Source of the DNA: Candidatus Thermoplasmatota archaeon
Lineage (GTDB): Archaea > Thermoplasmatota > E2 > DHVEG-1
Direction of reading: 5' to 3'
Assembly: GCA_029907305.1 (NCBI GenBank)
Contig: JARYMC010000004.1
Span: forward strand, 1 to 36,193
Length of the DNA: 36,193 nucleotides
The position numbers and the translations under genes were made by a program. Below, piece after piece: positions 1 to 13,853 of this stretch. Position 1 is the stretch's first letter. The number at the start of each line of letters is the position of its first letter. Below the pieces are notes generated by a model. That model made no database searches and had not been told where the DNA came from. It saw nothing but the letters and a program-made list of their open reading frames with translations.

Positions 1-259
1 CGCCGTAGTTGTTCATAAACCCAGCAACAGTTCCACCAACCAATGGTGTTCCTTTAGGTAACACATCCCACACACCATCTAAAAACTCTTGAAAACCACC
101 ATGTTTTTCATAATGTATCGTAGAAAACAGCAAAAAGAAATCAGGGGGCCTGCTCAAATTCTTAATTGCCGTCTCAGCTACTTCTCTTCCTGCCTCACGT
201 GCATCCCACTTACGGCTCATGCCAACAGCTGCTTCAAACTTCGGCTCAGGCATACCCAT
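1..259 (-). CDS. FIST-domain sensory protein, N-terminal part (cut by window edge)
   Basis: The minus strand encodes an open frame starting MGMPEPKFEAAVGMS and running off the left edge with no stop. About 86 residues are visible. The pattern WDAREAGREVAETA, then PDFFLLFSTIHY, then PKGTPLVGGTVAGF matches the start of a FIST_N domain (family pattern: Ala-rich helix, hydrophobic strand ending near H/Y, then P(L)hGG(S/T)xAG). FIST domains are intracellular sensory modules thought to bind small ligands and often sit with signalling proteins. Start codons at 259 or 253 are both possible; neither has a well-spaced Shine-Dalgarno sequence. The promoter region carries a TATA-like box and a motif shared with the Roadblock and KaiC genes. 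The family call is fairly firm; ligand and C-terminal architecture cannot be seen. Confidence 0.8.
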   Translation of the reverse strand, partial: MGMPEPKFEAAVGMSRKWDAREAGREVAETAIKNLSRPPDFFLLFSTIHYEKHGGFQEFLDGVWDVLPKGTPLVGGTVAGFMNNYG

Positions 260-308
260 CCCAAATTTATTAATTTAATATGCTCAGATGTGCATCCAAA
301 TTAATACT

Positions 309-323
309 ATACAAATATTGTAT
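309..323. promoter_or_regulatory. Perfect palindrome ATACAA-ATA-TTGTAT upstream of the FIST gene
   Basis: Two perfect 6-bp arms separated by 3 bp lie 50-64 nt before the FIST start, immediately downstream (in the minus-strand sense) of the shared TATCANNTAAC element, near the predicted transcription start. The size and position suit a dimeric repressor site. In AT-rich DNA a chance palindrome is also possible. Confidence 0.35.
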
Positions 324-346
324 CAGATAACAGTTTTTAAATCTTT
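321..346 (-). promoter_or_regulatory. FIST promoter: TATA-like box plus shared TATCANNTAAC element
   Basis: On the plus strand this reads TATCAGATAAC followed by AGTTTTTAAATCTTT. Read on the minus strand it is a TATA-like TTTAAAAAC followed at once by GTTATCTGATA. The same arrangement occurs before the Roadblock (2491-2516) and KaiC (4812-4836) genes. The element is about 62 nt before the FIST start and lies between the TATA box and the expected transcription start. Confidence 0.5.
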
Positions 347-455
347 ACCACAAAAAAAATGCCATTAAAACGACAGTAACACCTCCAATAGAGAATGAAA
401 AAGCAATATACCTTTCCACATCACGGTATATCTACTCGTATTTTTACTTACAGTA
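345..455 (-). pseudogene. Degraded 3' end of a small membrane-protein gene
   Basis: A minus-strand frame ends at the TAA at 345-347 and gives RDVERYIAFSFSIGGVTVV then LMAFFLW, a convincing transmembrane helix ending at a stop. Going upstream the same frame meets TAG and TAA stops, while a neighbouring frame reads VAATVSKNTSRY, which would join smoothly after a frameshift. No Met start in frame covers the helix; only a GTG is available. It is either a gene remnant or a tiny GTG-started membrane peptide. The rest of 260-592 holds only AT-rich sequence and the promoters of the flanking genes. Confidence 0.35.
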
Positions 456-561
456 GCAGCTACTTAAAAGGGCGCATCTTATTGTTTAATAAACACATAT
501 TTTAATTTATTACACTGATGTGTATTAAAATATTGATTTTTGTTACACATTCATAGAAACA

Positions 562-570
562 TTTATAAAT
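562..570 (+). promoter_or_regulatory. TATA box of the first ATPase gene
   Basis: TTTATAAAT lies 23-31 nt before the ATG at 593, the usual archaeal TATA-to-start-site distance. No Shine-Dalgarno sequence is visible, so the mRNA is probably leaderless or nearly so. Confidence 0.55.
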
Positions 571-592
571 AAAAGAACTTTTTCAATAGTCC

Positions 593-1852
593 ATGGAAGA
601 ATCGATACAACGATGGAACATCTGGTGGGAAAACCCAGAAGAGATAATAAAATACATAGGCACAGAACGAACACTACTGACACAAATACTGCAAGAAACG
701 ACAATTCCACACATCAAAGACATCATTGGAGTAAGGAGATGCGGAAAAACAATTCTCATGTACCAGATAATGTCTAAACTAATAAAAGAGAATGTAAATG
801 CAAAAAATATTCTCTACCTCAACTTTGATGACCCTGAATTAACAGATCTTGAAGAAACGATAAAAACCTCTTTACACATCAATCCAGAGATTTCGCATGT
901 TTTTCTTGATGAAATACAGAATGTTAAAGAATGGGAAAAAACAATCCGTGTATACTACGACAGGAAAAAATTTAAACAAATCTTCGTCTCAGGCTCATCC
1001 GCATCTTTAATCTCAAGAGACATCGGACGAACACTAACAGGCAGACATGTCACAACACTTCTTACACCATTTTCGTTTAAAGAATATCTCCTTCACCAAG
1101 GAATCAAGCAGCCGGCACACATCTCACACAGAGAAAAAGTCATCCATTACCTAGAAAAATACATAAAAAATGGTGGTTTTCCTGAAACCATCAACACCGA
1201 CCCATTAACATCAAAAGCCATTCTATTAGATTTATACAATGACATCCTCTCAAGAGACATTGCCGCTCGCTTTGAAGCAGAAATGGACATCGTGAAAAAA
1301 ATAGGGTACTACATGATGACAAACATTGGAGCTCTATTTTCCTACAACAGCGTTGCGAAAGCCTTAAATCTCCATTATGACACCGTAAAGAAATACATTC
1401 CTTATTTTGAAGAGGTTTTTCTATTCATCATCATCCCATATTTTTCATGGAAAATCAAAACAACCCTCAAAAAAGACATGAAATGCTACGCAATAGACAC
1501 TGGTTTACGGAATGCGGTTTCTTTTAAATTTTCCGAAGATTTAGGAAAACTCGCTGAAAATCTTGTGATCATAGAATTAAAAAGAAGAGGAAAAGACGTC
1601 TATTTCTGGAAAGGAAAACATGAAGTTGATTGCATCATAAAAGAAGGCAATAAAGTCATTGCATTGAATATAACCTACTCCAATAAAATCTCTGAGCGGG
1701 AAAAAGAAGGTTTACTTGAGTTTAAAGAAAAATACAAAAATGTAGATCTCGTGATAATCACAAAAGAGTTAGAACAAAGAGATGATGAGAAAATACAGTA
1801 CATTCCATTATGGAAATGGCTCCTTGAGATTGAAGAAAACAGGAACGATTAA
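593..1852 (+). CDS. AAA-type ATPase with C-terminal DUF4143-like domain
   Basis: The 419-residue protein has a Walker A motif GVRRCGKT (residues 46-53), a Walker B HVFLDEIQNV near residue 100 and the SGSSASL segment typical of the AAA_14/DUF4143 ATPase family. The C-terminal part has the family's LYNDILSRDIAARF region and a helix-turn-helix-like segment (NSVAKALNLHYDTVKKYI). These ATPases are common, variable, accessory genes in archaea; their substrate is unknown. The family's C-terminal nuclease-like signature (EVDxxx...IEVK) reads EVDCIIKEG...ALNITYS here, so the expected E-x-K pair is lost. It is transcribed against its neighbours and sits between the FIST and Roadblock genes, so it is probably an insertion. 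The start is fixed by the TATA box 25-30 nt upstream. Confidence 0.85.
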   Translation: MEESIQRWNIWWENPEEIIKYIGTERTLLTQILQETTIPHIKDIIGVRRCGKTILMYQIMSKLIKENVNAKNILYLNFDDPELTDLEETIKTSLHINPEISHVFLDEIQNVKEWEKTIRVYYDRKKFKQIFVSGSSASLISRDIGRTLTGRHVTTLLTPFSFKEYLLHQGIKQPAHISHREKVIHYLEKYIKNGGFPETINTDPLTSKAILLDLYNDILSRDIAARFEAEMDIVKKIGYYMMTNIGALFSYNSVAKALNLHYDTVKKYIPYFEEVFLFIIIPYFSWKIKTTLKKDMKCYAIDTGLRNAVSFKFSEDLGKLAENLVIIELKRRGKDVYFWKGKHEVDCIIKEGNKVIALNITYSNKISEREKEGLLEFKEKYKNVDLVIITKELEQRDDEKIQYIPLWKWLLEIEENRND

Positions 1853-2020
1853 AAATCCTTCTTAAAACAACAAAATAATCAAAAACAGATAAATGTTTTT
1901 TCAAAAAAATAATACTAAACCTTTTAAAAAATCATACTAATTAGCAATTATTACAAATGTTCAAATGTGTTCAGTAGTAATTAGCACCAGAACGTACTAG
2001 CCTCAAAAAGACCTAACGTT

Positions 2021-2425
2021 TTAAACAGTAACTGAAACCTGCTTTATATTATCCTTCTCATTCATAATCTTTAATATCTCACGTCTAGCATTCTCCAACT
2101 CAACCTCAAGCAAACCCTTATTTGCTAGAGCAGGAACAATAGCAACAAGCGCATTCTCAGTATCAGGGAAAACATAAAACAAAACCTCATAATCCTGCAA
2201 CCTAAACTCCATCTCACCCAAACCAGCACCAGAATACTGACTAATCACAGTAAACACGTCATCCATAGCACGCTTAATAATATCCCAAATCTGGTTAACC
2301 TCAGGTTTAAAACCATCACCACTAGGCATAACACTAATCATATTCCTACGGGCAACCATACAAGCAAGGATATCATCAAGCTTCAACAAATCATCCAAAA
2401 CCAAAGCAATAGGATCATCTCTCAT
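2021..2425 (-). CDS. Roadblock/LC7-like small signalling protein
   Basis: A 134-residue soluble protein. The central part (IISVMPSGD-like strand, a helix IWDIIKRAMDDVFTVISQ, then YEVLFYVFPDTENALVAIVP and a final helix) resembles the alternating beta/alpha pattern of the Roadblock/LC7 fold, which in prokaryotes partners small GTPases or other NTPases. The frame could begin at a GTG at 2434, but the ATG at 2425 is preferred because GAGGAG is spaced 11 nt before it. It lies on the same strand as the FIST, KaiC and histidine kinase genes and shares a promoter element with FIST and KaiC. The family call is by pattern only; a divergent longin-like or unrelated small domain is the alternative. Confidence 0.55.
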   Translation of the reverse strand: MRDDPIALVLDDLLKLDDILACMVARRNMISVMPSGDGFKPEVNQIWDIIKRAMDDVFTVISQYSGAGLGEMEFRLQDYEVLFYVFPDTENALVAIVPALANKGLLEVELENARREILKIMNEKDNIKQVSVTV

Positions 2426-2490
2426 TCTAAACACAACTCCTCAAATCTAAATTTATAATTACACATCCACATCCATTACAAATTATACTT

Positions 2491-2516
2491 TATCATTTAA
2501 CGATTTATAAGATTTT
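2491..2516 (-). promoter_or_regulatory. Roadblock-gene promoter: TATA box plus shared TATCANNTAAC element
   Basis: The plus strand reads TATCATTTAAC then GATTTATAAGATTTT. On the minus strand this is a TATA box (CTTATAAATC) followed by GTTAAATGATA, 66 nt before the chosen ATG. It matches the elements before the FIST and KaiC genes at every defined position of TATCANNTAAC. Confidence 0.5.
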
Positions 2517-2531
2517 CCTAACTGTTTGATA

Positions 2532-3715
2532 TCACAAGAGATGCTGCTTTAATCCAGCAATATCTGTAAAATAAACCGTACAATTATCACATTTTATCTT
2601 TCCATGTTCGCCTTTATAAGTAACAACAAGTGCTTTGCCTGGGTGATACACCCTAATAAACGATCGTAAACCTTGTTCAATTTTTCCAAGATCTGCATGA
2701 AGTTTCACTTCAATCGGAACAATATTATTTGCATTTTCGACGACAAAATCAACTTCTGATTTAGTTTTAGTTTTCCAATATTTTGGTGTTATCCCTAGTT
2801 TAAGAAGTTCTGTAAAAACATAGTTTTCAAAAAGTTTACCTTCAGGCTCAAGCTCAAAACGTTTCGCAATAATATTTCTTAGTCCGGTATCAATGAAATA
2901 CACCTTTGGTTGTTTCACAATCTCCTTAAGTTTATTTGTAAAATAAGGGTAAACTCTGGCAATAAAATAACTCTTCTCCAAGGCATCAAGATATTTTTTA
3001 ATGGTTCGAAATGAAGTTTTCAATGAGTTTGACAACTCACCATAGGAGATTATTGAACCAATACCTAATGCAAGATATTTAGCAAACTCTTCTAAAGAAC
3101 GGATATCATCAATAGAAAATGTTCTTGCTACATCCTTTAAAAGCATAGTTTCATACAAATCATTTAGAATTGTTTTTTTCATTTCAGTATCATTTGTCAA
3201 TACAACCTTTGGATACCCACCATACAACATATGCTCCCACATCATCCTTTGAGCAACAACCGACGTCATCTTTTTCTGTCCTTTTGCCATTAAGAATTCA
3301 TCATATGAAAATGGGTATAGTTTTAAAATCGATATTCTACCAACTAGATACGAGAGGATTTCTTTTCCAAGTATAACTTCTGATGATGAGGTGATCCAAA
3401 GTTTTCTACCGGAATCAACTAGATATTTTAACTTACGCCCAGCATTCTCACAGGATTGTACCTCATCTAGCACTGAGAAATCATATCCATTTAAATACTG
3501 GAGCTCAAATTTTTTTACATCTTCATCAAATAACGAGCGTACATCTGGATCGTCAAAGAAAATATATGTAGATTTAAAATTTTCCATCTTTTTTTTAGAA
3601 ATGTTGTTTTTCCTGCCTGTCTTGCACCAACAACTGCAACCATGTTGTAACTTTTTATGATTTTATCGAACTTTTTCTTTATCTCTCGTTCAACATATGA
3701 TAATATATTATACAT
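2532..3715 (-). pseudogene. AAA/DUF4143-type ATPase split by a frameshift
   Basis: Two overlapping minus-strand frames make up one ATPase of about 395 residues, the normal family length. The 5' frame (3715 to 3515) carries the N-terminus and Walker A (VGARQAGKTTFLKK). The 3' frame (ATG at 3587 to 2532) carries STYIFFDDPDV, the Walker B VLDEVQSCENAG, the SSSEVILGK segment and a C-terminal domain with EVDFVVENANNIVPIEVKL, a complete D...E-x-K nuclease-like signature. The break falls in a run of eight A residues (plus-strand T at 3589-3596). One more A, or a -1 slip there, restores FLKKKMENFKS. It could be a true pseudogene, a programmed -1 frameshift at A-AAA-AAG, or a homopolymer sequencing error. 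Confidence 0.8.
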
Positions 3716-3740
3716 TGCAACTATTTATAATATTTATAAT

Positions 3741-3806
3741 TTACTAAAATTGATATACTAGTCAATAAAAGTATTACTAAAATTGATGTATAGTTTAATA
3801 AAAGTA
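3741..3806. repeat. Tandem duplication, two 33-bp units
   Basis: Copies 3741-3773 and 3774-3806 are directly adjacent. Both begin TTACTAAAATTGAT and end AATAAAAGTA, with differences confined to the middle. They lie just upstream (minus-strand sense) of the split ATPase gene, over its likely promoter. There are only two units and no spacers, so this is not a CRISPR array. Confidence 0.75.
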
Positions 3807-3817
3807 GGGATAGAATG

Positions 3818-3982
3818 TTAATTATTATCGATTAATTTTTTCTGTTGTTTACTCCACTTTTTATTCGGCGTTTTCTTCAACCACTCTACATATTTATCAA
3901 TAAACTCTAAACACTCCCTAAAATTATCCTCTTTAAACTACTTCAGCTCTTTCAAGTCAACGCGTGGTAGTTTCTTCTTCAT
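3818..3982 (-). pseudogene. Small charged-protein gene with an in-frame TAG
   Basis: The minus strand from the ATG at 3982 reads MKKKLPRVDLKELK, an amber codon, then FKEDNFRECLEFIDKY, VEWLKKTPNKKWSKQQ and KKLIDNN before TAA at 3818-3820. The second part has a clear amphipathic helical, lysine-rich character and stays in frame with the first, so this is a coherent protein of about 54 residues carrying one nonsense codon. TAG ends other genes here (signal peptidase, queC), so it is an ordinary stop in this genome. The product is unrecognised. It is probably an inactivated small accessory gene, with only 8 nt to the end of the KaiC-like gene upstream of it. Confidence 0.5.
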
Positions 3983-3990
3983 AATCAATT

Positions 3991-4755
3991 TTAAACGAAC
4001 TTAATCCCGCCCTCAGTGATCATTATATCCTGGGGCCTAAGCGTATGCCTAGTAGCACGCATCTTACGAATAGTAAGCTTCCTACGATCCATAGTCATAT
4101 CCAAATCCATAAGAATAATACCATCAACAAGAAACTCACTAATAGTATCACGAGACAAACCACGGCTGCCCTCAGGAACCTCAGACGTAACAAGAGAAGT
4201 AACATTCTTGTTATTCAAAATACTCATAATACGACGGATATGAATACGAGTAGCAGGAATAGAACCAACAGGGAAACCCTTAGTAGCCCTACTCTCCTCA
4301 GAAGGAATAATCTCATGAACACCACTAACCCAAACAGGAACCTCAGCAATAGGAGTCAAAGAATCAAGAACAACACGAGAATAACCACCGTTTTTAACCT
4401 CCTCCTCAACCTCTCTATGAATAGTGTTCCTGTCAAGATCCATGTAAACAAACTTAAGCTGCCCGCTATTAACAGCAAACTGGAAATCAAAACCAATCTC
4501 ACGAGCCTGATTAAGAATATTATCAACACGCTCATCAGAAGTAAGATACAAACATTTCTCACCGCGTTTCAAACCCTCGGCTATATAATGGTAACACAAA
4601 ATCGTTTTACCACTACCAGGAGTACCAGAAACCAAAGTCACACTATTACGAGGTAGACCACCAGACAAAAGCTCATCAAGCCTACTTATACCAGTACTAA
4701 CCCTACTTGAAACATTCTTCTCAAAGCTCATACCAATCTTACCAAACTCTTCCAT
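3991..4755 (-). CDS. Single-domain KaiC/RadA-family ATPase
   Basis: A 254-residue RecA-superfamily ATPase: STGISRLDELLSGGLP (residues 20-35), Walker A GTPGSGKT (44-51), Walker B RVVLDSLTP, and a C-terminal IRKMRATRHTLRPQDIMITEGG stretch typical of KaiC-like proteins. Archaeal proteins of this type are membrane-less signalling ATPases, often found with Roadblock, FIST or histidine kinase proteins; the specific output is unknown. GAGG lies 10 nt before the ATG. It is on the same strand as the histidine kinase upstream, 312 nt away, and has its own promoter with the shared element. It is not RadA recombinase, because it lacks the N-terminal helix-hairpin-helix domain. Confidence 0.87.
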   Translation of the reverse strand: MEEFGKIGMSFEKNVSSRVSTGISRLDELLSGGLPRNSVTLVSGTPGSGKTILCYHYIAEGLKRGEKCLYLTSDERVDNILNQAREIGFDFQFAVNSGQLKFVYMDLDRNTIHREVEEEVKNGGYSRVVLDSLTPIAEVPVWVSGVHEIIPSEESRATKGFPVGSIPATRIHIRRIMSILNNKNVTSLVTSEVPEGSRGLSRDTISEFLVDGIILMDLDMTMDRRKLTIRKMRATRHTLRPQDIMITEGGIKFV

Positions 4756-4811
4756 ACCATCACATCCTCTACAATAAACACATTTCTTTAGAGAACCAAC
4801 CTAAAACAACA

Positions 4812-4836
4812 TATCAGATAACGTTTTAAATAACTT
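4812..4836 (-). promoter_or_regulatory. KaiC-gene promoter: TATA-like box plus shared TATCANNTAAC element
   Basis: The plus strand reads TATCAGATAACG then TTTTAAATAACTTT. On the minus strand a TATA-like ATTTAAAAC runs straight into GTTATCTGATA, 57 nt before the ATG. The element matches that of the FIST gene at 11 consecutive bases (TATCAGATAAC). Confidence 0.5.
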
Positions 4837-4892
4837 TGCCAAAAAAAAGAAAAAAAATTTATGGTTAAAAAAAAAAACAAAAAAAATTTTTT

Positions 4893-6049: not shown

Positions 6050-8056
6050 ATGGTATCTAGAGAAGATTTCAAATCATTTATACCAGCAGAAAAAGACATA
6101 CCAGAGCTAACAGTAAAAGCAATTCTAGTAGGAATATTCCTAGCAGTTGTACTAGGAGCAGCAAACGCCTACCTAGGGTTATACGCTGGTATGACAGTAT
6201 CAGCAATAATACCAGGCGCAGTAATGGCACTAGCATTAATGAGACCATTCAGAGGAACAATACTTGAAATCAACCTCGCAACCATGGGCGCCTCAGCAGG
6301 CGAATGCATAGCAGCAGGAGTAATATTCACAATACCGGCCCTTGTTATACTAAAAATATGGACCGAGATACATCTCATAGAAACAACATTAATAGCCCTA
6401 CTAGGTGGAATAATAGGCGTACTATGGATGGTGCCACTACGCAGAGCACTTGTTGTTAAAACAGACCTACCATTCCCAGAAGCAGTTGCTGTAGCAGCTG
6501 TTCTCACAACAACAGTTGGTGGCGAAACAGCTGGGGAAAAGAAAAAAGAAGGCAGCATAAGCGGAATATGGCTTTTAGTAGGTGCTTTAATCGCAGGTTT
6601 ATACAAATTCGGTGAGCTAGCACTAAACATCTTCAACGGAACATTAGAGTACATTGGTAACATCGGAAAATTCAATATAATGGGAAAAACAAGAGACGCC
6701 TATTTATATGGTGGTTTAACCACGTCACCAGCCCTGTTAGCTGTCGGATGGATCATAGGACCACAAGTAGCATCCTATGTCCTAGTAGGAGGTTTACTAG
6801 GCTGGGTTGTAATAGCACCATTAATAGCCTTAGCCAGCGGCATGCCACCAGGTGCAACAACACCACTAGACGGCTTCTTCATCATATGGGGTGAGCAGAT
6901 ACGATACATCGGTGTAGGAGCAATGCTAGTAGGTGGTCTTTGGGCTATATGGAAAATCAGGAGTAACCTAGCAAGCAGCGTAAAAGAAGCGGTAATAGGC
7001 ATAAGAGGCGGACAAGTGAAAACCAAAAAAAGAACAGATCAAGACACAAGCTACAAACTAGTATTCATACTAATAATAGTAATGATCATACCTGTTTTCT
7101 TGTTATACCTCTGGCTTTCAGGTATGACAGAGTTATCACTTTTCATGGCTGTTATAACAATACTCTTTGCGTTCATAGCAAGCGCACTAGCAGGGTACCT
7201 AACCGGCTTGGTTGGCTCATCAAACTGCCCGATATCAGGAGTAACAGTAGTAGTACTACTACTAGTTAGCCTGATAATGCTCCTATTAGGTGCAACAAGC
7301 CCTCAGGCGATGGCTATAGCGGTTCTCATATCAGCAGTTATATGCGTAGGAGGATCAATATCAGGAGACCTATTACAATCAATGGCATGCGGACAAATGC
7401 TAGGAGCAACACCAAAAAGACTACAGATATCAATGACCTTTGGTGTAATAGCGGTATCAGTAGTAGTAGGACTAGTAATAGGGGTACTAAACCAAGCGTT
7501 CCAAATCGGTAGCATACGTTTACCAGCGCCACAAGCATTCCTCATGGCAGGCATAGTAAAAGGCGTACTAGGCGGAGAAATGCTATGGCCATATGTAATA
7601 GGAGGGATGGTACTCGCAATAGTACTAATACTCATAGACCTACCAGTGCTACCAGTAGCAATAGGAATATACCTACCATTCACCCTAAGCGTACCAATAT
7701 TCACTGGCGGAGTAATCAGACACTTCACAGACAAAAAACTAACAAAAAAATACGGGGCAGACGAAGAAGAAATAAGCGACTGGGAGCTAGCAATCAAACA
7801 AACAGGTGTTAAACCAAAAGAAAAAGTAATCAGAACAGGACTACTACTAACAGCAGGGCTAGTAGCAGGAGAAGCACTAACAGGAGTAATAATAGCACTA
7901 TTAGTAGTAACCGGCATAAACCTAGCAGTATTCCAAACACCACCATGGTGGCCAGGACTCATAATATGGATATACATAGCAGTACTACTAGCATACATAC
8001 CACTAAGAGAAACAACCAAAAAACAAACAAAAAACATAAAAAAACGTTTTAAATAA
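6050..8056 (+). CDS. OPT-family oligopeptide transporter
   Basis: The 668-residue protein is an integral membrane protein with many hydrophobic helices along its length. Family features are the N-terminal ELTVKAILVGIFLAVVLGAANAYLGLYAGMTVSAIIP, the DLPFPEAVAVAAV segment and the C-terminal MLWPYVIGGMVLAI and LPVLPVAIGIYLP helices, typical of prokaryotic OPT members. OPT proteins import oligopeptides or metal-chelate compounds using ion gradients; the substrate is not predictable. The frame could open at a TTG at 6041, but the ATG at 6050 (MVSREDFKSFIP) fits the family start and the TATA spacing. It appears to be transcribed alone. Confidence 0.92.
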   Translation: MVSREDFKSFIPAEKDIPELTVKAILVGIFLAVVLGAANAYLGLYAGMTVSAIIPGAVMALALMRPFRGTILEINLATMGASAGECIAAGVIFTIPALVILKIWTEIHLIETTLIALLGGIIGVLWMVPLRRALVVKTDLPFPEAVAVAAVLTTTVGGETAGEKKKEGSISGIWLLVGALIAGLYKFGELALNIFNGTLEYIGNIGKFNIMGKTRDAYLYGGLTTSPALLAVGWIIGPQVASYVLVGGLLGWVVIAPLIALASGMPPGATTPLDGFFIIWGEQIRYIGVGAMLVGGLWAIWKIRSNLASSVKEAVIGIRGGQVKTKKRTDQDTSYKLVFILIIVMIIPVFLLYLWLSGMTELSLFMAVITILFAFIASALAGYLTGLVGSSNCPISGVTVVVLLLVSLIMLLLGATSPQAMAIAVLISAVICVGGSISGDLLQSMACGQMLGATPKRLQISMTFGVIAVSVVVGLVIGVLNQAFQIGSIRLPAPQAFLMAGIVKGVLGGEMLWPYVIGGMVLAIVLILIDLPVLPVAIGIYLPFTLSVPIFTGGVIRHFTDKKLTKKYGADEEEISDWELAIKQTGVKPKEKVIRTGLLLTAGLVAGEALTGVIIALLVVTGINLAVFQTPPWWPGLIIWIYIAVLLAYIPLRETTKKQTKNIKKRFK

Positions 8057-13776: not shown

Positions 13777-13853
13777 AAAACCATTCTCTTTTCTTTATAC
13801 ATATCAGATTACAGTTAAAATAAAATAGAATAATACTACTTACCTCAAACCAA

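Follow-up and report, generated by a model that had tools for sequence, protein, structure and literature searches.

An element shared by three promoters of a split KaiC-Roadblock-FIST cluster in a Thermoplasmatota archaeon: a probable melting-region half and a cluster-specific half

The promoters of three genes in a stretch of 36,193 nt from a Candidatus Thermoplasmatota archaeon (contig JARYMC010000004.1, referred to as the window) have a short element in common behind the TATA box. They are probably ordinary archaeal core promoters of the BRE/TATA type that belong to a sensory cluster; the TGATA half of the element would be part of the melting region and the GTTA half would be specific to the cluster. 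According to this proposal, the sensory cluster is made up of a KaiC-family ATPase, a small Roadblock protein and a FIST sensor, each of which would be expressed from its own BRE/TATA core promoter. The (T)GATA half, located about 10-15 nt behind the TATA box and roughly at -14 to -9, may serve as the AT-rich site of first DNA melting, a function that we infer. The GTTA half would be a cluster-specific likeness with a local role at most.

Genes of the Cluster and Their Order

The FIST-domain gene (2..259, minus strand) is represented by its N-terminal 86 aa and is truncated by the contig end. Its full-length orthologues match PF08495 (FIST), and the gene is present in 27 of the 45 genomes of the family. 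At the other end of the cluster lies the gene of a single-domain KaiC-family ATPase of 254 aa (3991..4755, minus strand; PF06745). KaiC-family ATPases have been described as signalling hubs in archaea (PMC5847659). The third gene is small and conserved (2021..2434, minus strand), with a conserved start ATG at 2425. A preliminary description of this DNA labelled it Roadblock, a label that is unconfirmed, as the gene had no match in Pfam, NCBIfam or PDB. Two structure models of its product were of low confidence (mean pLDDT 49 and 44) and mutually discordant.

The order KaiC-Roadblock-FIST is conserved in other genomes of the same family (G001, G009, G023 and G027), where the three genes are close together on one strand. 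A conserved gene order is thereby documented for uncultured Thermoplasmatota, together with one genome in which it is split. In the window, each of the two gaps contains an AAA_14/DUF4143 ATPase gene. One of these (593..1852, plus strand) is located between Roadblock and FIST, which are adjacent in the relatives compared, and the second (2532..3587, minus strand) is located between KaiC and Roadblock. Each of the three cluster genes has a separate promoter. The best explanation is that the cluster has been split into three transcription units, with the DUF4143 ATPase genes in the gaps. Pfam checks of a few neighbouring genes, both in the window and in three relatives, revealed no DNA-binding regulator, and a literature search found no paper on this KaiC-Roadblock-FIST cluster. 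A tandem pair of 33-nt units, 82% alike (TTACTAAAATTGATATACTAGTCAATAAAAGTA), was also observed at 3741-3806, in the gap upstream of a DUF4143 gene.

The Shared Element at the Three Promoters

Exact plus-strand matches of TATCANNTAAC are found at 321-331, 2491-2501 and 4812-4822. Since the FIST, Roadblock and KaiC genes are all on the minus strand, the shared word reads GTTANNTGATA in gene sense. The word before both FIST and KaiC is GTTATCTGATA, identical at 11 of 11 positions, and the word before Roadblock is GTTAAATGATA. The FIST promoter (321..349, minus strand) consists of the BRE GGTAAAG at 343-349, the TATA box TTTAAA at 336-341 and GTTATCTGATA at 321-331. The KaiC promoter (4812..4840, minus strand) is built in the same order from GGCAAAG at 4834-4840, TTTAAA at 4825-4830 and GTTATCTGATA at 4812-4822. 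The Roadblock promoter (2491..2518, minus strand) has the BRE GGAAAA at 2513-2518, the TATA box TATAAA at 2504-2509 and GTTAAATGATA at 2491-2501, followed by AAGTATAA.

At all three sites, which were recognised by consensus, the motif comes after a BRE-like A-tract and a TATA box. An RRAAA-type BRE stands directly before a TTTAWA-type TATA box in each case, the FIST and KaiC BREs having a pyrimidine within the purine stretch. The motif follows the TATA box after 4 nt in the FIST promoter (TTTAAA) and after 2 nt in the Roadblock (TATAAA) and KaiC (TTTAAA) promoters, so the spacing is not quite constant. Measured from the motif, the start codon is 61 or 67 nt away in FIST, where either of two ATGs is possible. 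The corresponding values are 56 or 65 nt for Roadblock (GTG at 2434 or the conserved ATG at 2425) and 56 nt for KaiC. In the start-site map of P. furiosus, the BRE occupies -36 to -32, the TATA box -30 to -23 and the AT-rich region that melts initially -11 to -2 (PMC6640164). With start sites placed by analogy with this map, the shared element would extend from about -21 to -11 in both KaiC and Roadblock, and in FIST it would lie about 2 nt further downstream.

The preliminary description had reported the same element at 321, 2491 and 4812, in one orientation and beside a TATA box, with FIST and KaiC copies alike over 11 bases and a location downstream of the TATA box but before the expected start. 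The three exact copies, the identity of the two words and the position predicted from the P. furiosus map bear these claims out. Its start-codon distance of 57-66 nt was recomputed as 56-67 nt, depending on the start used.

Orthologous Promoters and the Two Halves of the Motif

Orthologous promoters can be used to separate words picked by eye in AT-rich archaeal DNA into core-promoter and gene-specific sequence. Across 12 genera, the KaiC promoters are nearly invariant in the BRE GGAAA and the sequence TATTTAA. Conservation is next strongest in the (G/T)AT(A) half at 10-13 nt behind the TATA box, where A at +11 and T at +12 are each kept in 11 of the 12. GTTA is only weakly conserved, its four columns agreeing in 5, 6, 8 and 10 of the 12 promoters, respectively, so that the A is the best kept. 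A near-complete counterpart of the motif is found in the KaiC promoters of genus g2, which read GTTAAATGATAAC in G001 and ATTAAATGATAAAC in G023, and half of it is found elsewhere. Among 25 Roadblock promoters, which include several from one genus and hence are not independent, AT is present at +11/+12 in 60%, compared to 0-28% at other positions; no conserved GTTA was found in these promoters. The Roadblock promoter of the window continues as ATAAAGTATAA, as in members of genus g13, which indicates that this promoter has its own history. FIST in relatives is mostly located close behind Roadblock, without a comparable promoter.

Another sequence was noticed near the FIST start. GGATGCA/GGATGTA is present in the window at 285-300 (minus strand) and also upstream of FIST at L092, L094, L096, L100 and L111. 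In several genera its distance from the FIST start is about 30-60 nt, and in some a very short reading frame (MHI*, MYI*) comes after it; it may represent a leader element or mark an alternative start.

Elsewhere in this genome, promoters show the AT(A) half as well, though less strongly. At 47 other TATA-anchored candidates, which are consensus TATA matches and include false promoters, ATA/TAT was found at +10 to +16 in 47%, compared to 18% in coding matches; at a control offset the values were 28% and 25%. The general claim is based on this set, which was drawn from this genome alone with the three promoters and the exact motif words left out. A broader TATA-anchored set includes KaiC orthologues and hence was not used as its basis. 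Unsupervised motif discovery (EM) was abandoned after drifting towards T-runs, and consensus-anchored sets were used instead.

An AT-rich region some 10-20 nt behind the TATA box is present in KaiC (11 of 12) and Roadblock (60%) promoters and is weaker in the other promoters of the genome. Because the AT(A) half recurs both in orthologues and in other promoters, the GATA half is best taken as a melting or promoter-proximal region. A reading of the motif as an operator common to signalling genes is not supported, since many genes have AT(A) in their promoters at 11-13 nt behind the TATA box and the Roadblock orthologues keep it without GTTA. The three promoters resemble the archaeal core promoter (PMC6640164; PMC9087966) in their purine-rich A-tract BRE, in the TTTAAA/TATAAA box and in the AT(A) at about -13 to -11. 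They differ from it in the GTTA right behind the TATA box, which is common to the three and absent from that consensus.

Occurrence of the Motif in the Genome

The bare motif was found 23 times in the genome (1.41 Mb in a fragmented assembly of 141 contigs, 95.5% complete), compared to 14 times for a reversed control, which is near chance. When a TATA box was required in front (TWTAAA-N1-5-GTTANNTGATA), three matches were found genome-wide, all of them in this cluster, and the reversed control gave 0. None of the remaining 20 copies is preceded by a TATA box, and almost all of them are located in coding sequence or at gene ends, which argues against a regulon. Across the family, too, TATA box plus motif is matched mainly within coding sequence; matches in promoter position before the cluster were found in G000, G001 and G023.

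The preliminary description had proposed a regulator site common to signalling genes and had suggested a motif search over the whole genome as a check. This search revealed no other promoter in the genome with TATA box plus motif. The same site does not occur at several loci of the genome, as the operator of a regulon would, and a signalling-wide regulon is not supported. What remains of the proposal is an element located between the TATA box and the start and confined to three related genes. One-mismatch matches in the window number 21, close to the expected 15.6 +/- 3.6. The near match TATCAGATTAC at 13802..13812 (plus strand), before nob1 and in the opposite orientation relative to it, is therefore at chance level, as had been suspected, and falls outside the set. 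A general GATAAAGTAT promoter motif was rejected, having 2-3 copies in a sample whose stretches cover about a quarter of the genome.

Alternative Explanations for the GTTA Half

Repressor operators in archaea can sit between the TATA box and the start site. The shared element has the same position, and in one relative it forms an inverted repeat, GTTA-N5-TAAC; it differs from such operators in having no other target in the genome, no known regulator and an incomplete dyad in the window copies. A local regulator could bind GTTANNTGATA(AC) and block or help initiation at all three promoters, which would keep the split cluster co-regulated. The inverted repeat of the fullest copies, the restriction of TATA box plus motif to this cluster and the KaiC promoters of G001 and G023 are consistent with such an operator. 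However, none of the three window copies has a complete TAAC arm (they read TACA, TAAA and TATG), the FIST spacing to the TATA box is off by 2 nt, the Roadblock promoters of relatives are without GTTA, and the few neighbouring genes checked yielded no DNA-binding regulator. A cluster-specific operator is rather unlikely on balance. It is quite unlikely that one putative regulator acts on GTTA-N5-TAAC between TATA box and start as a single control over the three split units of the KaiC-FIST module. If the GTTA half is functional, it would provide a small, testable case of co-regulation that has outlived the break-up of an operon.

The likeness between FIST and KaiC extends beyond the motif. Their upstream regions give a 38-nt alignment that takes in the T-run, the BRE and the TATA box, with a score that 0.02% of the 14,674 upstream pairs attain, and the promoter stretch is a direct repeat of 37 nt at 78%. 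The KaiC promoter may have been copied before FIST when the cluster was split, an order of events that we infer, and the identity would then reflect recent common descent and not control. This is improbable, as the TATA box, BRE and T-run make up much of the 38 nt and Roadblock is left unexplained: its promoter keeps ATAAAGTATAA as in another genus, so it is no copy of the KaiC promoter. The GTTA half could derive from a local operator or from KaiC to FIST promoter copying, but copying alone fails for Roadblock. Likeness could also arise by chance among AT-rich core promoters chosen by eye in a long window. The number of one-mismatch matches in the window agrees with this, and 1 of 483 neighbouring-promoter pairs in the genome sample has an equally informative common word, which would make a few pairs of this kind in each genome unsurprising. 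Chance is nevertheless highly improbable, since three promoters are involved and not two, and the reversed motif has no match behind a TATA box. In shuffles of the three 31-nt segments, which take these promoters as picked from the window, an 11/11 pair arose in 0.13% and a three-way 9/11 match in 0 of 3000, a result that also favours an operator.

The core-promoter reading, which is preferred here, has evidence against it as well. The GTTA half goes beyond what a core promoter would predict, as does the 11/11 identity between FIST and KaiC, and GTTA-N2-TGATA behind a TATA box is absent from other promoters of the genome. The g2 KaiC promoters carry the motif or nearly so, and GTTA is thus partly conserved there.

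A stronger case of paired promoters than FIST and KaiC was observed elsewhere (L154, G000:C8). Two genes starting at 8049 (minus strand) and 15203 (minus strand), 7 kb apart on one contig and with signal-peptide-like N-termini, have a promoter stretch of about 60 nt in common, with ATAAGTTAACATNNGTTAA.
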